Shown here: piece by piece, positions 3,207-50,233 of the stretch
Position numbering within the stretch: position 1 is the first letter of the stretch
Layout: each line of letters opens with the position of its first letter
Source: an uncultured Verrucomicrobiota bacterium
GTDB taxonomy: Bacteria; Verrucomicrobiota; Verrucomicrobiia; Limisphaerales; UBA9464
NCBI GenBank assembly: GCA_903907925.1
Contig: CAIVQB010000130.1
Span: forward strand, 1 to 50,941
Length of the DNA: 50,941 bases
Direction: 5' to 3'
Program-made: the position numbers and the translations under genes
The notes under the pieces: generated by a model
The model's input: only the letters and a program-made list of their open reading frames with translations
The model's database searches: none
What the model was told of the DNA's origin: nothing

Positions 3207-3320
3207 CCCGGCGCAGTGACCGCAGGTGGGAGACGGGATTTCAGACAAACCTTCAGTGAAATCGACGCGGCAAAAGTGGGTATCCGGAGGTCATGTTGCT
3301 TCGGCTGTATTCTCGAAGGT

Positions 3321-3396
3321 TGAGACAGAATGGACTGAATGAACCGAATAAGACCGGCATTTTAGGAATCGGTGTGAATCGGTGAAATCCGTGTCG
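3321..3396 (+). repeat. Dispersed repeat family C, copy 1
   Basis: Copy of a roughly 80-base intergenic repeat containing GAATGAACCGAAT, then GGAATCGGTGTGAATCGG and TGAAATCCGTGTC. Related copies lie at 27951-28033, 45174-45254 and 46498-46575. Here it sits between the M14 hydrolase gene and cysT, on the strand opposite to their transcription. No coding potential is visible. Confidence 0.8.
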
Positions 3397-17813: not shown

Positions 17814-20747
17814 ATGAAGCATTGCTTGCTGGTGTTATGGGTCCTCGCGACCCAGTCGGTAGTGAGGGCGGCCGTACCCGTCGAGGCGCCGCCCGCGGTC
17901 CACGGTGCGCGTCCGGCATCTCCGCATCCGGTTCATCCGGCTCGTCCGGCGTCGGATCAGCCCCAATACGACATTGGCGATCCGACGGACGACGAGCAGT
18001 TGTTTCTGGAGTTGATCAACCGGGCCCGGGCGAACCCCGCGACCGAGGGAGCCCGCCTTGCCGCGAGTACTGACTCCAACATCCAGGCGGCGCTCCAAGC
18101 CTACCAGGTCGACCTGACGAAACTGCAGATCGACATTGCCACCAATCCTCCCGCGCCTCCGTTGTCCTTTGAACCCCGCCTCTTGTCCTCGGCCCGGCAG
18201 CATTCGCAGTGGATGCTGGATCACGCCTGGCAGGCGCATGAAGAGACAGATCCGGTGGGCGACATCGATCACATCGTCAATACGACCTTCGACCGGATCA
18301 CCGCGACCGGCTACGACTACGCGACGGCCGGCGAGAATGTGTACGCCTATTCGTTTTCCCCCGAATACGGGCACGCGGGATTTGAGGTGGATTGGGGATT
18401 CGGGCCGGGCGGGGTTCAGTCGGAACTGGGACACCGCCTGAACAATCACAATCTCGACTTCACCGAGGTCGGCATCGGCCTTTTCAACGGCACGCGATCG
18501 GGGCCGGTCGTCGTGCAGGTTTCCGGGACCAACACTATCATCACCAACACGGTCGGTCCCCAGGTTGTGACCGTCGATTTTGGGTCCCGTTTTGATGGCA
18601 TGCCGTTGATCACCGGTGTCGTTCACTATGATTTGAACGGAGACCAGTTTTACGATGTGGGCGAAGGTTTGGAGGGGGTCCGGGTCGATGTCGACAGTGG
18701 GCCGACCTTCGCGGTGACCGCTGGATCGGGTGGGTATGCGATCCCGGCGGTGGAGGGTCCACAGACGGTGACGTTCTCCGGACCGGGTCTCTCACCGGTG
18801 CAGCAAAAAATCGCGGTAACCAACGGCCACAATGCCAAGCTGGATCTGCGCCTCGCCTATCCGCCGCCGATTCTGACCCTGCCGACCCAGGTTTATTCCT
18901 CAGTGCCGAACGTTTTCTCCTGTTCCGCCGTTCCGCTCGCCACGGCCTACGATTTGGAAATCGGTACGGTGGTGCCCTACACGGCGGTCATTGATCCGAA
19001 GAACGGGATCGGCCCATTTTTGCCGGAAGTGACCACGAACGGCACCGCTCCGGCGTACAGCCTTGTTCTCGGTGATTTCTTCACCTCGACGCTCGGATTT
19101 CATCTCGCCAGTCCAACCCAGGACCCGCAGCGGCTGGTGCTCGGGACACGGCTGCGCGTGGGCACGGGGGCCAAGATCTCGTTTGCGACCGAACTGGCGG
19201 TGGCCGGCACCAATCAATATGCGCGGCTCGAAATCTCCACCAACAGCGGCGTCAGTTGGTCGAAGCTGTGGGAACAACGCGGTCGCGCGGTCAATAATTC
19301 GGTGACGATCGAGCCATCGTTCACTGCGCGATCGGTGTCGCTGGTGGCGTATGCCGGTTGGGAATGTTCGTTTCGCTTTTCGTACGTTGTCGAACTGGAT
19401 GCGACCGGCACCGGCAGCTTCCAGATCGGCACCGGCAAGGAGAGCGGCTTCTTCTTCAACGCGGTCAGCTTCACCGCCGTGGATGCCCTCACCCAGACCG
19501 GCTCTCAAACGACGGCCACCAACCTGTTTGTCCTCACTCCGGCATCGACGGGATCGCAGTATCTGCGCGTCTGGCCCAATGCCGGAAGCCGGTCGCTACC
19601 CGCCGGTCCGATCAAGCTGGTATCCGTCGTTGCTCCGTCTGCCGTCGTCCACCTGACCGCGTCGGTGGTCGGAACCGGCTCAGTCGCCGTGTTCCCGCCG
19701 GGTGGAATCTATGCCAAAGGGACGCAGGTGACGCTGACCGCGACCCCGGCGGCGAACTGGAACTTCTCTGGATGGTCCGGAGGTGCGACGGGTACTTACA
19801 ATCCGCTGAACCTCACCCTCCAGGCGGATGCTGCGGTGACGGCAACCTTCGTTCCCGCGACGGTTCAACTCACCACCGCTGTGATCGGAACGGGCACGGT
19901 GACGGTGTCGCCGTCGGGCGGAACTTACGCCAAGGGAACGCCGGTGACGCTGACCGCCACGCCGGGTTATGGCTGGATCTTCTCCGGTTGGTCGGGCGAG
20001 GCTGCGAGTGCGGCAAATCCATTGAACCTGACCTTGTCGGCGGACACGGCCGTAACGGCGACCTTTGTTCCCGCAGTGGTTCAGCTCACCACAGCGGTGG
20101 TTGGAACGGGTTCGGTGTCGGTGTCGCCGCCGGGTGGAACCTACACCCTGGGAACGGCAGTGACGCTCACCGCCACACCCGGTGACGGCTGGACCTTCTC
20201 GGGCTGGTCGGGCGGGGTCATGAGCGCCGCGAATCCGTTGAACTTGACCGTGTCGGCGGACACCGCGGTGACCGCGACGTTTGTTCCCGTGGTGGTCCAG
20301 CTCACCACGGCGGTGGTCGGAACCGGTTCGGTGTCGGTCTCGCCGTCGGGAGGATCGTATCCCAAGGGCACTACCGTGACCCTGACCGCAACGCCGGGAA
20401 CGGATTGGACCTTCTCTGGGTGGTCGGGTTCGGTGACCAGTTCGGCGAATCCGTTGATCCTGATCGTGTCGGCGAATACCGCGGTGATGGCCACGTTTAT
20501 CTCTGCGGTACCGCCGGCGGTGTCGATCACCGCATTGACCGCCGGGTCCGAAGGCACGCTGACCCTCGACTTCGATCTCACCCAGGGAAGCGCCGGAGTG
20601 TTCACCCTCGAAGGGGCGGACAATCCAGTGGGTCCGTGGAATCCGTTGTCGGTGCCGCTGACCACCAACAGTCCGACTAAATTCACCTTCAAACCGATTG
20701 TTCCTGGAAGCAGTCCCGAGAGTTTCTATCGTGTCCGAGTTCAGTGA
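17814..20747 (+). CDS. Large secreted CAP-domain protein with InlB-type B-repeats
   Basis: 977 residues. Signal peptide (MKHCLLVLWVLATQSVVRA), then a CAP/SCP-like domain (about 55-240): ELINRARANPATEG, ARQHSQWMLDH, ATAGENVYAYS, LGHRLNNHN. Next is an SdrD-like B-type domain (VVHYDLNGDQFYDVGEGLEG, about 265-350), then a region shared with the next gene (FHLASPTQDPQRLVLGTRL, ARLEISTNSGVSWSKLW). Four 72-residue repeats follow (613-900) of the divergent InlB B-repeat type, each with VTLTATP and FSGWSG. The last 75 residues end in ESFYRVRVQ. The product is extracellular or surface-bound; its activity is unknown. Confidence 0.85.
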   Translation: MKHCLLVLWVLATQSVVRAAVPVEAPPAVHGARPASPHPVHPARPASDQPQYDIGDPTDDEQLFLELINRARANPATEGARLAASTDSNIQAALQAYQVDLTKLQIDIATNPPAPPLSFEPRLLSSARQHSQWMLDHAWQAHEETDPVGDIDHIVNTTFDRITATGYDYATAGENVYAYSFSPEYGHAGFEVDWGFGPGGVQSELGHRLNNHNLDFTEVGIGLFNGTRSGPVVVQVSGTNTIITNTVGPQVVTVDFGSRFDGMPLITGVVHYDLNGDQFYDVGEGLEGVRVDVDSGPTFAVTAGSGGYAIPAVEGPQTVTFSGPGLSPVQQKIAVTNGHNAKLDLRLAYPPPILTLPTQVYSSVPNVFSCSAVPLATAYDLEIGTVVPYTAVIDPKNGIGPFLPEVTTNGTAPAYSLVLGDFFTSTLGFHLASPTQDPQRLVLGTRLRVGTGAKISFATELAVAGTNQYARLEISTNSGVSWSKLWEQRGRAVNNSVTIEPSFTARSVSLVAYAGWECSFRFSYVVELDATGTGSFQIGTGKESGFFFNAVSFTAVDALTQTGSQTTATNLFVLTPASTGSQYLRVWPNAGSRSLPAGPIKLVSVVAPSAVVHLTASVVGTGSVAVFPPGGIYAKGTQVTLTATPAANWNFSGWSGGATGTYNPLNLTLQADAAVTATFVPATVQLTTAVIGTGTVTVSPSGGTYAKGTPVTLTATPGYGWIFSGWSGEAASAANPLNLTLSADTAVTATFVPAVVQLTTAVVGTGSVSVSPPGGTYTLGTAVTLTATPGDGWTFSGWSGGVMSAANPLNLTVSADTAVTATFVPVVVQLTTAVVGTGSVSVSPSGGSYPKGTTVTLTATPGTDWTFSGWSGSVTSSANPLILIVSANTAVMATFISAVPPAVSITALTAGSEGTLTLDFDLTQGSAGVFTLEGADNPVGPWNPLSVPLTTNSPTKFTFKPIVPGSSPESFYRVRVQ
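19650..20513 (+). repeat. Four tandem 216-bp intragenic repeats
   Basis: Units at 19650-19865, 19866-20081, 20082-20297 and 20298-20513, in frame, each coding 72 residues. The pattern is QLTTAVVGTGSVSVSP, then VTLTATPG, FSGWSG, NPLNLT and TAVTATF. Units 2-4 are the most alike at the DNA level; unit 1 is the most divergent. Such arrays change copy number by recombination or slippage. Confidence 0.95.
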
Positions 20748-26697: not shown

Positions 26698-26841
26698 CCT
26701 CTTTTTCTTAATCTTAATCCTAATCTTGATCGCACATTCAAGTTCCGGCCCCGAACTAGTTTCGGGGTGAGACTGCGATTTGGGTTAAGATTACGATGAA
26801 GATTACGATGAAGATTACGATTAAGAGTAGGAGTAAGAGGG
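26698..26841. repeat. AT-rich simple repeat arranged as a long imperfect inverted repeat
   Basis: Left arm 26698-26734 is made of TTAATC-type words (CTTAATCTTAATCCTAATC). Right arm 26774-26841 contains three 12-base units AAGATTACGATG (26787-26822) and ends in AGAGTAGGAGTAAGAGG. The arms are roughly complementary. Between them is a perfect hairpin CCCCGAA-CTAGT-TTCGGGG (26749-26767). It lies downstream of sdhB and of the convergent outer-membrane protein gene, so it may end both transcripts, but there is no U-run. The remaining bases to 26983 show no gene. Confidence 0.8.
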
Positions 26842-27950: not shown

Positions 27951-28033
27951 GGGATCGGGACACGATGCGCCGAATGAGCCGAATCCGATCAGCCCCTCAG
28001 GAATTCGTGTGAATCCGTGAAATCGGTGTCCTC
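27951..28033 (+). repeat. Dispersed repeat family C, copy 2
   Basis: Contains GAATGAGCCGAATCCGATC, then CAGGAATTCGTGTGAATCCG and TGAAATCGGTGTCC. It is the closest match to copy 4 at 46498. It lies between the divergent barrel-protein and DUF1080 genes and ends about 85 bases before the latter's start. Confidence 0.85.
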
Positions 28034-42988: not shown

Positions 42989-43094
42989 GCGGCCGTCTGT
43001 AAATTGGGTATAGTCCCGCGGCAATGGGTTTTGTCGTCTGCCGGTGTAACGAAGAGGGAGCAATAGGGTCGCATCTGATCATTTGATTTGGGAT

Positions 43095-43124
43095 CAAGAA
43101 TCACAGTGCGGCCTCTGATTCTTG
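43095..43124. repeat. 9-bp perfect inverted repeat after the DMT gene
   Basis: CAAGAATCA and TGATTCTTG separated by 12 bases (CAGTGCGGCCTC). It lies 107 bases after the DMT gene stop and directly before the hairpin repeat cluster. There is no U-run. It may be the end of the inserted repeat element or a weak transcript end. Confidence 0.6.
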
Positions 43125-43140
43125 CCAACGCTTACCCTCC

Positions 43141-43332
43141 GAAGCGCCAACGGCGCGGCCCCATACCAGACTGGGGCAACGCCCCGGGATTGGGAATACC
43201 CCAGTCTTTCAAGGGCTGAAGGCCCGCTCCATCGCTCCATCCGGAAATGGCACGGCCGTTCGCCCCAAACGGGAATGGATTGCCGTCCTGGGGCGCTGCC
43301 CCAGGCTGGTATGGAGCGGGCCTTTGGTCTTG
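43141..43332. repeat. Hairpin repeat cluster: family A (two inverted copies) and B
   Basis: Copy A1 (plus, 43141-43190) has CCATACCAGACTGGGGCAAC then GCCCCGGGA. Copy A2 (minus, 43285-43332) is the inverse and has CCCCAGGCTGGTATGGAGCG. Unit B (43210-43233) reads CAAGGGCTGAAGGCCCGCTC. Each A unit holds a short hairpin (CTGGGGC-AAC-GCCCC type). The pair of inverted copies could form a larger fold. No gene is present from 42989 to 43429. Confidence 0.85.
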
Positions 43333-43429
43333 ACCGCAGCCCGTGTGGGGAAAGCGGTCGCCAATGACACAGGCAGAATAGAGCGACGTTGGCGGATGAA
43401 GTGGGGTTGAGTATCGAGCAGAATTGACC

Positions 43430-44233
43430 TCATTGCTTCGTTGCCTCTTCTGTATTGGCCGCGTCGGTCGGGAGCTGTCCGCGCAGATTTTCCAAGAGTA
43501 ACTGAAGTCGACGCGGGTTCGCTGGATCCGATGTGTTGCCCTCGCGCCCGCCCGCGGGGCCGGCGTCGAGGGCTCGGTCCAAGGCGGTCACCAGCACGGC
43601 CAGATCGCCGGCGGCCAGCGGAAGAGTGATCTTTTCCTCCTGCGCCAGTTTCATCGCCCGTCGGGCCAGATCGAGCAGCAGGGCGCAGGGTTCCAGACAG
43701 GGAAGGTCCGATTTTTCGGCGGCACCATCGGGTTCGAGATCCGGGGCGGTCCAGAGGCGTCGTCGCAGACAGAACCGCGCCGAGCAGCACGCGCGGATGG
43801 TCCGGTTCGCCAACGGCCCGGGAAGGAGCGTGGTGATGCGATACAACCCCGTCTGTCGCGCGGCGAATTCGCGAAATCCAGTCACCGGTGGGTTGCCCTG
43901 CCATGCCGCGTACCAATCCGGAATTCCACCCGGATAAAGATGGTCGATCGCGATTCCCAATTCGGCAAGGGATTGGATTCGACAGTTCCATCCGCGTTGC
44001 AGGCCCGGAGCCGCCTTGTTCGGACGGAATGAACCCGCGGGCGTGGTCCGCGAGATCCGTCGCAGATCGCCCGTGAAAACCGATTCCAGTGATTCCACCG
44101 GCCGATCCACATCGTCCCGGTGACGCAGTTCAAATCCGCTGGCGAGCGGACGGATCCAGACCTCGACCAGTACCCGTCCGGCACCGATTGACTCGGAGAA
44201 GGCCTTCAATGCCGGGTTGAGAAAGGGAACCAT
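43430..44233 (-). CDS. DR2241-like Fe-S cluster protein without chelatase domain
   Basis: 267 residues from ATG 44233. The segments GSFRPNKAAPGLQRGWNCRI, LGIAIDHLYPGGIPDWYAAW and REFAARQTGLYRITTLL match the conserved core I recall from DR2241-type proteins. In those, this region stabilises a 4Fe-4S domain and is often fused to a CbiX chelatase. Cysteines C149, C150, C155 (ACCSARFCLRRRLW) and C179, C183 (PCLEPC) could bind the cluster. The CbiX domain is absent. The role is unknown; tetrapyrrole metal chemistry is a guess from relatives. The C-terminus is low-complexity. Confidence 0.6.
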   Translation of the reverse strand: MVPFLNPALKAFSESIGAGRVLVEVWIRPLASGFELRHRDDVDRPVESLESVFTGDLRRISRTTPAGSFRPNKAAPGLQRGWNCRIQSLAELGIAIDHLYPGGIPDWYAAWQGNPPVTGFREFAARQTGLYRITTLLPGPLANRTIRACCSARFCLRRRLWTAPDLEPDGAAEKSDLPCLEPCALLLDLARRAMKLAQEEKITLPLAAGDLAVLVTALDRALDAGPAGGREGNTSDPANPRRLQLLLENLRGQLPTDAANTEEATKQ

Positions 44234-44370
44234 GCCGCGGAAAAGGTATCGTGGAATGGACGGAGGGCGAACCGGTTTGTTTCCGCCGATTGGAGCCAAC
44301 CGGGGTGGTGGGCCGACCCCGCCCTATTTTCTGTGTTGCAGCCCTGATACGATCCGCTTGGATCGCCGGC

Positions 44371-45168
44371 ATGAAGACCCCGTTGCTGTTTCTTGTCGCG
44401 CTCGTTGCCGCCGGGATGGTTTCCGCCCAGGACTGGGCGAAGGCCCGCCTGGAAAAATCACCCCGCCACATGGAATGGGTGAAGGTGAAGCAGGGTGACC
44501 GCGTGGTGCAGTGCTACATCGCCTATCCCGAGGTGAAGACCAAGGCGACCGCTGTGTTGGTGATCCACGAAATCTTCGGGCTCACCGACTGGGTCCGTGG
44601 CGTCACCGATCAACTGGCGGAAGCCGGTTACATCGCCATCGCCCCCGATTTGCTGTCCGGTGCCGCGCCGGGCGGCGGCGGAACCGCTGAATTGGGCGGC
44701 GGTGACGGCGTGCGAAAAGCGATTTCCAGTCTGCCCCCGGACCAGGTGACTGCCGATCTGAAGGCGGTGCTGACGCATGTCGCAGCATTGCCTGCGTGCA
44801 ACGGAAAGGTGGCGGTCGCCGGATTCTGCTGGGGCGGTGGTCAAACCTTTCGTTTCGCGACCCACGAGCCGCGGGTGGTTGCTGCGTTCCCGTTTTATGG
44901 CACGGGTCCCGATCGCGAGGAGGACATCGCCCGAATCTCGGCACCGGTCTTTGGCTTCTACGGTGGGAACGACGCCCGCGTCAATGCCACCATCCCGGGT
45001 TCGACCGATCTGATGAAGAAGGCCGGCAAGCGTTACGAGCCGGTGGTCTATGACGGTGCCGGACACGGTTTCATGCGGGCCGGTGAAGCTCCCGATGCCT
45101 CCGATGTGAACAAGAAAGGCCGCGACGAGGCGTGGAAACGTCTGAAGGAATTGCTCGGCCGGCTCTGA
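44371..45168 (+). CDS. Secreted dienelactone hydrolase family protein
   Basis: 265 residues from ATG 44371 with a signal peptide (MKTPLLFLVALVAAGMVSAQ). The alpha/beta hydrolase triad of dienelactone hydrolases is visible: C153 in GFCWGGG, D201 in YGGNDAR and H232 in GAGHGFM. VLVIHEIFGLTDWVRG is the family oxyanion-hole region. It probably hydrolyses a small ester or lactone in the periplasm. It is divergent from the DR2241-like gene, with 137 bases between the starts. Confidence 0.91.
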   Translation: MKTPLLFLVALVAAGMVSAQDWAKARLEKSPRHMEWVKVKQGDRVVQCYIAYPEVKTKATAVLVIHEIFGLTDWVRGVTDQLAEAGYIAIAPDLLSGAAPGGGGTAELGGGDGVRKAISSLPPDQVTADLKAVLTHVAALPACNGKVAVAGFCWGGGQTFRFATHEPRVVAAFPFYGTGPDREEDIARISAPVFGFYGGNDARVNATIPGSTDLMKKAGKRYEPVVYDGAGHGFMRAGEAPDASDVNKKGRDEAWKRLKELLGRL

Positions 45169-45173
45169 GCCAG

Positions 45174-45254
45174 GATTGAGACAGAATGGACCGAATGAAC
45201 CGGATGGGATCGGCTCTTCAGAAATCCGAGTGAATCCGTGAAATTCGTGTCCCT
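45174..45254 (+). repeat. Dispersed repeat family C, copy 3
   Basis: Contains GAGACAGAATGGACCGAATG, then GAGTGAATCCGTGAAATTCG and TGTCC. It begins within a few bases of the hydrolase stop codon. The opening GAGACAGAATGGAC is shared with copy 1. Confidence 0.85.
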
Positions 45255-45377
45255 CATCGGCCCTTTCCAAATCGCTTTGACGCGGCGCGGGTTCGGGCTG
45301 CGTGCGATACGAAAACACGATTGTCCCTGGATGCGGTTCAAGTTGTCCGCCGGCAAGCCGATACACTAGTGGGATCT

Positions 45378-45417
45378 CCGGGAGAGGACGGGGATCCGGC
45401 AAGCCTCCCGGTTTTTT
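45378..45417 (+). terminator. Intrinsic terminator or attenuator, first of a pair
   Basis: CCGGGAG pairs with CTCCCGG across 20 bases, followed by TTTTTT (45412-45417). The upstream bases GGATCTCC (45372-45379) can pair instead with GGGGATCC (45389-45396 region), which would compete with the terminator stem as in attenuators. It could end the hydrolase transcript or a short leader RNA. Confidence 0.65.
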
Positions 45418-45422
45418 GTGAG

Positions 45423-45514
45423 CACGGTCGCTGACATTTGGCACGCGGGTCCTCCTCACCTGCGCTGCTGCCCCTCACGACGTTAGCGGCCGTGTTCACT
45501 CCGGGTGGAGGAGG
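45423..45514 (+). ncRNA. Candidate structured RNA between two terminators
   Basis: CACGGTCGCTGAC (45423-45435) pairs over 13 positions, with G-U pairs, with GTTAGCGGCCGTG (45482-45494). Inside is a second stem CGCGGGT/ACCTGCG closing the loop CCTCCTC. Downstream GGTGGAGGAGG (45504-45514) is complementary to that loop, so a pseudoknot is possible. A terminator follows at 45520. I matched it to no known RNA family. It may be a standalone small RNA or a leader of the DUF1080 gene at 45680. Confidence 0.4.
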
Positions 45515-45519
45515 CTGGT

Positions 45520-45553
45520 GCCGGTCGCAGTTTTTCCTGCGACCGGCCGTTTT
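45520..45553 (+). terminator. Strong hairpin terminator, second of a pair
   Basis: GCCGGTCGCAG and CTGCGACCGGC form a perfect 11-bp stem with the loop TTTTTC, followed by CGTTTTC. It stands 127 bases before the DUF1080 start. Position and strength suit the end of a small RNA or an attenuator in the leader. Confidence 0.75.
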
Positions 45554-45679
45554 CATTTCAATCCTCGGTGGCCGGCGTGCGGGGCTGGCCTCGCATTGAC
45601 CCCGATTTATTTCTTTCCCGCACCGCGCTTCGTAGGTCCATTCTCCGCCGTCCCAATTCGCACCGCACTCCCGACTCCC

Positions 45680-46465
45680 ATGACCTTTCCCGCCGCACTC
45701 CACCGGTTGACTGTTGCCGCCGTTGTTCTCCAAGCCTCCGCCGTGAGCGTCTTCGCCGCTGTGGGAGTCGGTGCCAAACCGCTTCCGGGTGCCGAAGTGA
45801 TCATCGACGGCAGCCGGAAGATGCTCGATGACAAGTGGACCTACTGGCAGGGGCCGCGCTTCGGGTCGTCGCTCCCCATCAAGTGGAAGATCGTCGAGGA
45901 TCCGGTCGACAAGGGAACCGTGGTGATGACGGATGATCCGGCAGCCGCCGGCGGCAAATATGGGGCCGCTGACATCGTCACCAAGAAGGCTTACCGGGAT
46001 TTCCGGTTGCACGTCGAATTCCTGGTGATGAAACCCAGCGGTAACAGTGGTGTGTACCTGCAGAACCGCTACGAGATCCAGATCATGGACGGCGACAAGA
46101 CGCCGCACGGCATGGGAGCGGTCATCAACGAGACGCCGTCACCGTATGCCCTCTACAACGGTCTCGGGAAATGGAACGCCTACGACATCAACTTCCGCGC
46201 GGCCCGCTTCAAGGAAGGCAAGAAGGTGGAGCCCGCCCAGGTCACGCTCTACTTCAATGGAGTCAAAGCCCATGTGAACCAGTCGATCTCGCAGGTCTGG
46301 GGCGGACCCAATTCAGGCATTGACGGCGGCAATGACGGTGGCAAGGGGATCACCGACGTGCCCGGCGGTTTGAAATTGCAGTGCGAGGGCCACGACGTCC
46401 GTTTCCGCAACACCTGGATCAAGGCGATCGATCTCAAGGATTCGCCGACCGATTTCGTGAAGTAG
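45680..46465 (+). CDS. Secreted DUF1080 protein (3-keto-disaccharide hydrolase family)
   Basis: 261 residues from ATG 45680 with a signal peptide (LHRLTVAAVVLQASAVSVFA). Family features: FRLHVEFLVMKPSGNSGVYL, QNRYEIQIMDGDKTPHGMG, NAYDINFRAARF, VTLYFNGVKAHVN and a C-terminal LKLQCEGHDVRFRNTWIKAI. This is the carbohydrate-acting beta-sandwich seen also at 28118, but a more complete and distinct subgroup. Probably periplasmic glycan turnover. The leader holds two terminator hairpins and a candidate structured RNA, so attenuation control is possible. The in-frame region back to 45518 is not a plausible N-terminus. Confidence 0.9.
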   Translation: MTFPAALHRLTVAAVVLQASAVSVFAAVGVGAKPLPGAEVIIDGSRKMLDDKWTYWQGPRFGSSLPIKWKIVEDPVDKGTVVMTDDPAAAGGKYGAADIVTKKAYRDFRLHVEFLVMKPSGNSGVYLQNRYEIQIMDGDKTPHGMGAVINETPSPYALYNGLGKWNAYDINFRAARFKEGKKVEPAQVTLYFNGVKAHVNQSISQVWGGPNSGIDGGNDGGKGITDVPGGLKLQCEGHDVRFRNTWIKAIDLKDSPTDFVK

Positions 46466-46497
46466 TCGCGGCATCAATCCGGATCCATGCCGTGGGA

Positions 46498-46575
46498 TTG
46501 AGATCGGATGGTTCGAATGAACCGAATCCGATTGGTTGTTCAGGAATTCGTGTGAATCTGTGTAATCAGTGTCCT
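46498..46575 (+). repeat. Dispersed repeat family C, copy 4
   Basis: Contains CGAATGAACCGAATCCGATT, then CAGGAATTCGTGTGAATCTG and TGTAATCAGTGTCC. It starts about 33 bases after the DUF1080 stop. With copy 3 it brackets the DUF1080 gene in the same orientation. Confidence 0.85.
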
Positions 46576-46607
46576 TCCGCGGCGTCTTCGTCAGGTCCCG
46601 CCTAGAT

Positions 46608-47900
46608 TCACCGCAGTCCCTTGGCCGCGATGTCGCGCCGAAATTGCATTCCCTCAAAGTGAATATGATCCAGCGCTGCGTACGCGCGATCGCGGGCTGA
46701 CGCGAGCGTCGGAGCCCACGCCGTGACACCCAGGACCCGGCCACCGCTGGTGACGCAATGGCCGCCGCGGTGCGCTGTTCCGGCGTGGAACACCTTCACC
46801 CCGGGTAGGGCCGCCACCTCGTCGAGACCGGTGATGATTTTGTCACGCGTGACGGGGCCGGGATAGCCGGCGCTCGCCGCAACCACACACACGCAGGCGT
46901 CGGGTGACCATTTCAAATCGATGCGATCCAGGGTACCGCCGACACTTGCCATCAGCAGTTCGAACAGGTCGTTTTCGAGCCGGGGCAGATAAACCTGCGT
47001 TTCGGGGTCTCCGAAGCGGGCATTGAATTCCAGGACCTTGGGACCGGACGCAGTGAGCATCACCCCCGGGTAGAGAAGACCGCGGAAATCGATGCCATCG
47101 ACGGCGCAACCGGCCAGCCAGGGTTGGAGGATTTGTTGACCCACCCGTTCCAGTTCGGCGTCGGTGAGGAAGGGTGCGGGCGAATAGGTTCCCATGCCGC
47201 CGGTGTTTAATCCGAGGTCCCCATCGAGCGCCCGTTTGTGGTCCTGCGCCGTCGGGAACAACTTCGCCGTCCGCCCGTCGCACAAGGCGTGCAGAGAGAT
47301 TTCCATGCCCTCCAGCAATTCCTGGATCACCACCTGGGAACCCGCCGCGCCGAACGATTTATCGACGAGAATTTCGTCCACGGCTCGTTCGGCCTCGGCG
47401 AGTGTGGAGGTGAGGAGCACGCCCTTGCCGAGTGCGAGTCCGTCGGCCTTCACGGCGCAACGGCCATTGAGCCGGGCGCAGAATTCCTTGGCCGCAATCG
47501 GTTCGGTGAAGACGCCGGAGAGGGCGGTGGGAATGCCATGGCGCTCCATGAATTCCTGGGAGAACGCCTTGGACGCCTCGAATTGGGCGGCCCGCTGATT
47601 GGGACCCCAGATGGTGAATCCCTCCTCCTGAAAACGATCCACGACGCCGAGGGCGAGGGGATTGTCGGGTCCGACCACGGTGAGGTCCGGATGATGGGTC
47701 CGTGCAAACTCCAGTAGGGCCTCGATGTTGTCCGCGGCAATCGGGACGTTTTCGACCGGTCCACCGGAGACGCGCAAGTGCTCGAGAGCGGTGCCCGCAT
47801 TGCCGGGCGCCACCCAAAGCCGGCTGACATGCCGCGAGTGCGCTAGTTTCCAAACCAACGCGTGCTCACGACCGCCGGAACCGAGGACAAGAAGTTTCAT
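46608..47900 (-). CDS. purD: Phosphoribosylamine-glycine ligase
   Basis: 430 residues from ATG 47900. The N-terminal MKLLVLGSGGREHALVWKL, the ATP-grasp region KADGLALGKGVLL, EGMEISLHALCDG and the conserved GGMGTYSPAP, GLLYPGVMLT and EFNARFGDPETQVYLPRL are all GAR synthetase hallmarks. It catalyses the second step of purine synthesis. The frame continues upstream into repeat family A, which yields a spurious N-terminal extension, so the ATG at 47900 is the start. No other pur genes are nearby. Confidence 0.96.
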   Translation of the reverse strand: MKLLVLGSGGREHALVWKLAHSRHVSRLWVAPGNAGTALEHLRVSGGPVENVPIAADNIEALLEFARTHHPDLTVVGPDNPLALGVVDRFQEEGFTIWGPNQRAAQFEASKAFSQEFMERHGIPTALSGVFTEPIAAKEFCARLNGRCAVKADGLALGKGVLLTSTLAEAERAVDEILVDKSFGAAGSQVVIQELLEGMEISLHALCDGRTAKLFPTAQDHKRALDGDLGLNTGGMGTYSPAPFLTDAELERVGQQILQPWLAGCAVDGIDFRGLLYPGVMLTASGPKVLEFNARFGDPETQVYLPRLENDLFELLMASVGGTLDRIDLKWSPDACVCVVAASAGYPGPVTRDKIITGLDEVAALPGVKVFHAGTAHRGGHCVTSGGRVLGVTAWAPTLASARDRAYAALDHIHFEGMQFRRDIAAKGLR

Positions 47901-48050
47901 GGTGCGCCGCCGATGCAAACAGGAAGACACCGCGGGCGGGAGCGAAAAGGATCGGGGTGGATTCGACCCGAAATTGTACGGCCGCTCGAAATGCGCGCCG
48001 CCGCTGGTTTCATGATGCCCCAATCCGATGATCCCGTTGCCTTGTGTTTG

Positions 48051-48199
48051 AGGACCAAAGGCCCGCTCCATACCAGCCTGGGGCAACGCTCCAGGACCGC
48101 GCCTTGTCCCATCCTGAGGGCCGAGGGCCCGGCTCCATACCAGCCTCGGGCAACGCTCGAGGACCAACCGCGTAGACTCCCAAGGGCTGAAGGCCCGCA
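48051..48199. repeat. Hairpin repeat cluster: family A (two direct copies) and B
   Basis: A3 (48051-48097) reads AAAGGCCCGCTCCATACCAG then CCTGGGGCAACGCTCCAGGA. A4 (48111-48164) reads GGCTCCATACCAGCCTCGGG then CAACGCTCGAGGA. In A4 both stem arms carry a compensating change (CCTCGGGC/GCTCGAGG), which keeps the hairpin. Unit B (48180-48199) reads CCAAGGGCTGAAGGCCCGC. It lies upstream of purD. Confidence 0.87.
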
Positions 48200-49949: not shown

Positions 49950-50233
49950 CAAGTGTCGAATGATTTGGTACGCCCGGACGCCTTGGGCTTCAGGGTCAAA
50001 GGCCCGAACTATACCAGCCTGGGGCAACGCCCTGGGACCCCGTCCCGTCCCCCACTGAGGGCCAACGGTCCGTTCTATTCCCGGGTTCATCGATGGAGCG
50101 GGCCTTCAGCCCTGGGGATGCCGAGATGCAACAGACCCCGGGACGCTGCCCCGTCTGGTATGTAACCGCGCCGTTGGTGCTTCGGAGGGATCAACGTTCA
50201 CGAGAATCAAATGTCGAATGATTCAATACGGCC
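49950..50233. repeat. Repeat cluster A/B bracketed by 26-bp direct repeats
   Basis: The direct repeats at 49950-49975 and 50208-50233 follow the pattern CAARTGTCGAATGATT, then YRRTACGSCC. Between them are A (plus, 49991-50038), half-unit A (50052-50085), B (minus, 50090-50117) and A (minus, 50137-50186). The arrangement, with outer direct repeats around inverted hairpin units, looks like a composite inserted element. No gene is inside. Confidence 0.8.

Follow-up and report, generated by a model that had tools for sequence, protein, structure and literature searches.

A conserved, covarying RNA behind a flagellin-type promoter in one genus of Verrucomicrobiota, a probable small RNA of the flagellar regulon

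Small RNAs made under the flagellar sigma factor are known from Escherichia coli, in which the sigma-28-dependent UhpU, MotR, FliX and FlgO tune flagellum synthesis (PMC10578931), and from Campylobacter jejuni, in which CJnc170/FlmR is FliA-dependent (PMC11187230) and CjNC1 and CjNC4 depend on sigma-28 (PMC4626219). For CjNC1 and CjNC4, action in trans on flagellar 5' UTRs has been predicted, and their repression of reporters in E. coli does not need Hfq (PMC4626219). A different precedent comes from the mycobacteria, in which two unpaired cytosine-rich loops of the small RNA B11/6C pair with ribosome-binding sites (PMC10470900). For the PVC group, which includes the Verrucomicrobia, Table 1 of a review gives 8 annotated distinct small RNAs, compared with 345 for the Proteobacteria (PMC9029176).

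Computation shows at the locus analysed here an RNA of about 185 nt, conserved and covarying, that is made up of a 5' hairpin, a long rod with two unpaired C-rich segments and a terminator; the site ahead of it is built like the flagellin promoters of its genus. The likeness of the RNA to UhpU, MotR, FliX and FlgO is that of small RNAs under the flagellar sigma factor; those, as their description has it, are UTR-derived, Hfq-binding and conserved in some Enterobacteriaceae, whereas the present RNA is intergenic, has its own promoter and terminator and belongs to no Rfam family, and by this description it is set apart from them (PMC10578931). With the C. jejuni RNAs it has in common sigma-28-dependent transcription, predicted here from the promoter (PMC11187230, PMC4626219). 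However, CjNC1 and CjNC4, identical to each other at 37 of 44 nt, are far shorter and come from a different phylum, which again sets them apart by description (PMC4626219). B11/6C resembles it as a structured RNA with two unpaired C-rich segments, although B11/6C too belongs to a different phylum and the C-rich parts are here predicted to be the hairpin loop and an internal bulge of one rod (PMC10470900). A CCUCCUC-type motif is also present in CcsR1 (Rfam RF02791, the conserved CCUCCUCCC motif RNA); its match scored 11.4 bits (E 6.8), below the gathering score of 65.3, which ruled out membership of that family. By Rfam the RNA is a new family, and its kind, a small RNA of the flagellar regulon, is already known.

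The window, that is the whole stretch of 50,941 nucleotides, is contig C130 of an assembly (G000) of 148 contigs and 4.6 Mb that is 96% complete. The predicted small-RNA gene lies on its plus strand at 45369-45553, with the start placed from the promoter position and the end from terminator T2, and together with its promoter (45338-45553) it is best read as one stand-alone gene, not as a two-terminator attenuator. It is intergenic, between two enzyme genes, and is conserved and covarying in three genomes, G000, G006 and G007. Upstream, in all three, stands a dienelactone hydrolase family gene (44371-45168 in the window, plus strand; PF01738, 143 bits). The downstream neighbour in the window, a DUF1080/3-keto-disaccharide hydrolase gene (45680-46465, plus strand; PF06439, 95 bits), has its start codon about 130 nt after T2 and is found in the same order and on the same strand in G000 and G007; the G006 contig ends just past the RNA, before DUF1080, and in that genome the DUF1080 gene begins on another contig, about 140 bases in from its end. 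The window also holds repeats. Copies of a dispersed repeat, 76-97 nt in length and 70-83% alike, occupy 45176-45251, 46498-46573, 3320-3395 and 27955-28030, the first two flanking the block of RNA and DUF1080 at a distance of 1322 bases from each other. A second dispersed repeat of 37 nt (for example CCATACCAGCCTGGGGCAACGCTCCAGGACC) is found at 43155-43191, 48062-48098, 48129-48165 and 50003-50039, with two copies extending to 93 nt, and a tandem repeat with a 216-base period, its copies 72-75% alike to the reference, covers 19647-20404.

A DNA search of 58 related genomes returned two strong homologues of the RNA, both from the same genus, in G006 (E 5.9e-42, 80% identity) and G007 (E 8.5e-40, 82%), which are two of the seven congeners of G000; the remaining matches were short, with E 0.0018 or worse. 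At E<=0.01 a 91-base core matched three of 50 genomes of the family, these being three of the eight genomes of the genus, G000 included. The covariance model R1 recovered the same three members, at E<1e-44, from 320 genomes of the order, and beyond them only six weak matches (E 0.1-0.83), which were not kept since on re-scoring they reached 17.5-22.2 bits against 210-213 for the members; diverged copies could have escaped this search because it scored the best 8 candidates per genome under stricter filters. Opposite-strand matches of R1 at the member loci (26.7, 18.2 and 14.7 bits) overlap T2 and were set aside. The pattern of two C-rich segments occurs in 89 stretches of a genome contig collection, and among the 80 that were modelled the strong R1 matches were confined to two loci of Verrucomicrobia MAGs, L102 and L123, which are the G006 and G007 copies, the best other locus having E 0.11. 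None of the three pattern matches in viral contigs was found by R1 at E<=10, and plasmid and phage collections searched with the core yielded short matches only, in 1 and 3 records. Rfam at gathering score had no match anywhere in the window; at E<=10, the region 45150-45720 gave six sub-threshold matches with E 0.28 or worse, the best at 15.5 bits against a gathering score of 46.7, leaving the RNA without a match above the gathering cut-off. A limited literature search by titles, covering RNAs in Verrucomicrobia and flagellar terms, found no description of this RNA. A reading of the DNA from its letters alone (the sequence-only reading) had suggested here a small RNA of no matched family, a suggestion now supported by conservation, by covariation and by the absence of an Rfam match.

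On the plus strand, 45361-45565 has a folding energy of -105.7 kcal/mol, compared with a mean of -78.5 for shuffled sequences (z -6.1, 0 of 200 as good), and the minus strand gives z -2.9, with 2 of 200 shuffles as good. Folded separately, the G000, G006 and G007 sequences share one architecture, in which hairpin P1 is followed by the long rod P0-P2-P3 and by terminator T2. In a three-row alignment (A4), 167 of 168 cells (99.4%) hold standard pairs and eight pairs have changed on both sides (three in P1, two in P0 and three in T2), the structure having been derived from the same three related sequences in which covariation was tested. The sole unpaired cell is a T.T at 45406/45506 in P0 of G000. 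The covariation score was reached by 0 of 500 shuffles, and slid versions of the alignment pair at 33-52%. A lack of conservation or covariation in relatives was among the outcomes that would have counted against the sequence-only reading, and the reading passed this computational check.

All elements of the RNA lie on the plus strand. P1 (45372-45380/45389-45397) has 9 bp, 100% paired in the three sequences with a pair probability of 0.97-1.0, and a purine-rich loop, GGAGAGGA. P0 pairs 45404-45411 with 45501-45508 in G006, in G007 and in a 205-base stretch of G000; in a 181-base stretch of G000 the same 5' arm pairs a few bases further 3', and P0 is thus predicted to have two registers in that genome. 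The long-range stem P2 (45418-45435/45482-45499) counts 18 bp, not the 13 first reported. Inside it lies hairpin P3 (45444-45450/45458-45464), whose loop CCUCCUC (45451-45457) is invariant in the three sequences and has an unpaired probability of 1.0, and the second C-rich segment, GCCCCUCACGA (45470-45480), also invariant, is mostly unpaired (mean unpaired probability 0.77-0.88). Loop and bulge have CYCCUCAC in common, the last two bases of which close P3 in the loop. Neither P2 nor P3 varies in the three sequences, and for this reason they are without covariation support; both are predicted from energy and sequence conservation. A pseudoknot between the loop CCTCCTC and a complementary downstream GGAGGAGG had been pointed out, and both partners are in the window, but GGAGGAGG is absent from that place in G006 and G007 and the pairing was rejected. 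Terminator T2 (45520-45530/45537-45547, running to 45553) is the perfect 11-bp stem with a T-rich tail that had been noted there; its 11 pairs are kept in the three sequences and put it at the top of a 5-kb terminator scan, the other eight sites having 5-6 pairs. As a whole, the elements were present where the sequence-only reading had placed them, but the anatomy that they form is a different one.

Conservation peaks in the central part of the RNA rather than at T2. The hyperconserved core (45418-45500, plus strand), which is P2 with P3 inside, is identical at 83 of 83 positions between G006 and G007, compared with 52% at 132 fourfold-degenerate sites of the adjacent hydrolase gene in the same pair, and the G000 core matches each of them at 94% identity and differs by one 1-base indel. 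Over the three genome pairs the hydrolase gene is 76-77% identical as DNA and 38, 44 and 52% identical at its fourfold sites (124-132 per pair). In 20-column windows, identity is 85-100% within the core and 45-85% in the DNA outside. Since the core is conserved far above both the fourfold sites and the outside DNA, these alignments indicate that it is under strong purifying selection. P2 is invariant, G.U pairs included, which goes beyond what base pairing by itself would require.

The start of the gene is preceded by a sigma-28 (FliA)-type promoter (45338-45364, plus strand), with TCAAGTT at 45338-45344, a spacer, and GCCGATAC at 45357-45364. The TACACT at 45362-45367, previously proposed as a -10-like box, exists, but it overlaps the much better sigma-28-type -10 element GCCGATAC. 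The site is present in all three RNA members, in which the DNA upstream of the RNA has diverged except for the invariant TCAAGTT and the CCGATA-type element. Sixteen flagellin-domain loci of the genus were scanned with the familiar sigma-28 consensus, and in ten of them a site lies 162-186 bases ahead of the matched domain. Of the remaining six, four are the second members of tandem pairs in which the first gene carries the site, and two (L078 and L089) are without one. The ChIP-mapped sigma-28 sites of E. coli agree with this consensus, and the mapped flgKL site, TCAAGTCCGGCGGGTCGCTGCCGATAAT, shares the form of the RNA promoter (PMC4183435).

Score matrices were made from these flagellin sites. 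The largest joined the ten sites with two more from flagellin clusters of G003 and G005, the former followed by a flagellin-like leader, and left the RNA sites out. With these 12 sites, the RNA site scored 20.5 bits and came top of the 101,830 window positions, the next reaching 15.4, and the homologous sites scored 21.3 (G006) and 23.9 (G007), compared with 20.8-25.8 for the flagellin sites themselves; among 1,169,550 positions in 80 scan loci, the two that reached 20.5 were the two homologues. The RNA site also came first, at 19.9 against 15.6 bits, with a matrix of the ten sites directly before a flagellin, and the two background positions at that level were again the homologues. A six-site matrix, restricted to genomes without the RNA (G002, G003 and G005), placed it second in the window, at 15.5 bits, behind a short tandem-like stretch at 26785 with 16.6; in the background, four positions scored at least as high as the RNA site, two of them being the homologues. 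The simple pattern AAGTTN{11,13}CCGATA was not enriched in eight genomes (14 matches against 20 for the reversed control); 13 of these 14 matches have a 13-base gap, and three are the RNA itself. A further site of sigma-28 form, at L090:2380, was left out of the matrix.

FliA was found over the cut-off in G002, G003, G005, G006 and G007, with FlhA encoded near it in G007; in G001 it is split over two contigs and is 95-96% identical to the FliA of G006, but at 54% completeness this genome says little. Neither FliA nor FlhA was found in G004 or in the G000 assembly. G000 has two flagellins, a third flagellin-domain match, an FlgK-like protein and CsrA on contig C18, and the first of the flagellins has a promoter of the same sigma-28 form; the absence of FliA and FlhA from G000 is probably a hole in the assembly. 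G004 is without flagellin and also without the RNA. The RNA was not found in G002, G003 and G005, which have FliA and flagellins, and it is therefore not a fixed part of the regulon. Matches to csrA occur in six of the eight genomes of the genus, the three RNA carriers among them, always on a contig with a flagellin-domain gene. Separately, we observed that 14 flagellin leaders, each taken as roughly the 150 bases ahead of the flagellin start, are long and seemingly structured; they show two hairpins that bear A-N-GGA loops, one of them enclosing the ribosome-binding site (for example AACTC-ATGGATG-GAGTT). By eye, stem bases change in step in seven aligned leaders, which look like paired CsrA sites; a search of eight of these loci gave no Rfam match.

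The promoter might instead be thought to drive DUF1080, with the RNA as a cis-acting leader that decides at T2 whether transcription continues. Such an arrangement would fit the common order and strand of RNA and DUF1080 in G000 and G007, the closeness of the start codon to T2, the alternative pairings that exist in G000 and the two P0 registers predicted there. A two-stage attenuator of DUF1080 had in fact been proposed, with a terminator 1 (45378-45417, plus strand) formed by CCGGGAG (45378-45384), CTCCCGG (45405-45411) and T6. These letters are in place, but theirs is judged an alternative, non-preferred pairing: the competing pairing GGATCTCC/GGGGATCC, noticed at the same time, is P1, which outcompetes terminator 1 in all three genomes, by 7.6 (G000), 3.9 (G006) and 11.5 (G007) kcal/mol on the prefix ending at the U-tract, and the pair probabilities of terminator 1 in the full RNA are 0.0. 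The weakest of the three, that of G007, is not intact, having a mismatch, an inserted base, 5 contiguous pairs and a U-tract broken as TATTTCTT. (The 5-kb scan missed terminator 1 because its loop exceeds the length allowed there.) Its 3' arm is overlapped by the 5' arm of P0 and, on the predicted fold, is better explained as that arm. Moreover, no conserved pairing that would open T2 was seen, the strongest conservation is away from T2, by eye neither the RNA nor the hydrolase gene is present within 700 bases upstream of DUF1080 in G002 or G005, and at 27 DUF1080 loci besides those of G000 and G007, several shortened by contig ends, no model match was better than E 2.1. We consider control of DUF1080 in cis unlikely. 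Far less credible still is a small protein gene whose translation would conserve the core: by eye, a frame of 22 codons that opens with GTG runs across the core in G000, but it is shifted by the 1-nt indel that separates G000 from the other two genomes, and the changes outside the core are accounted for by stem compensation.

Two further explanations accept the RNA and dispute its regulon or its mode of action, and to each we assign a rather small chance, slightly below that of the cis-acting leader. Sigma-28 control could be wrong, and transcription of a conserved small RNA, or of some other element, under a different sigma factor would agree with the missing FliA of G000, with the FliA-positive congeners that have no RNA and with the lower rank of the RNA promoter under the six-site matrix; it is opposed by the 12- and ten-site matrix results, by the invariance of TCAAGTT and the CCGATA-type bases within otherwise diverged DNA, and by a search of 43000-48000 that found no sigma-70-type site where 1.0 was expected by chance. 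Alternatively, the RNA may bind a protein, for example as a CsrA antagonist, its purine-rich P1 loop or invariant P2 capturing a regulator and so freeing the flagellin mRNAs. The distribution of csrA, the paired A-N-GGA hairpins of the flagellin leaders and the conservation of P2 beyond the demands of pairing all speak for this. CsrB-type RNAs carry many A-N-GGA loops, yet by eye the motif is absent from the P1 loop in 3 of 3 sequences and the GGA elements of the linker differ between genomes.

The explanation preferred here is a small-RNA gene that stands on its own between genes and belongs to the flagellar (sigma-28/FliA) regulon, a reading to which we give a probability of about 60%. Its promoter looks like those of the flagellum filament genes, so the RNA probably takes part in the control of swimming as a small RNA. 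FliA, which in model bacteria is free once the hook is built, would transcribe the RNA together with the flagellins; released at T2, the RNA would act in trans, and its C-rich loop and bulge would pair with the G-rich ribosome-binding regions of target mRNAs and lower their translation. Pairing with ribosome-binding sites is suggested by the two predicted unpaired C-rich segments. Perfect 10-mer complements in the three genomes numbered 27 for the loop (20 for the reversed control) and 22 for the bulge (39 for the reversed control), three in each case being the RNA itself, and none lay before a start codon in orthologous genes; apart from the RNA, one orthologous pair was seen, L203/L208, but it runs antisense within a conserved reading frame and was discarded. 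Duplex energies were computed for 45 start regions (10 flagellar and 35 window controls) with approximate ORF starts, several of the flagellar ones (e.g. flaA, flhA and flgH) visibly not being the true start. With these starts, flagellar genes supplied three of the top six for the loop (flgG, flaB and flgK) and, with flhA, the best for the bulge, while motA and flgI were among the worst; the energies do not decide the targets, and we draw nothing from them.

A more elaborate version is possible but doubtful, in which the sequence-frozen RNA couples the hook-completion checkpoint to translation: FliA would make it alongside flagellin, the C-rich segments would block chosen ribosome-binding sites without a chaperone, and the P2 duplex would have a second, sequence-specific role, such as protein docking. 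The near-frozen P2 duplex does need an explanation beyond pairing alone. A conserved RNA that its promoter links to the flagellar regulon would offer a concrete entry into the post-transcriptional control of motility, in a region of the tree with few catalogued small RNAs.
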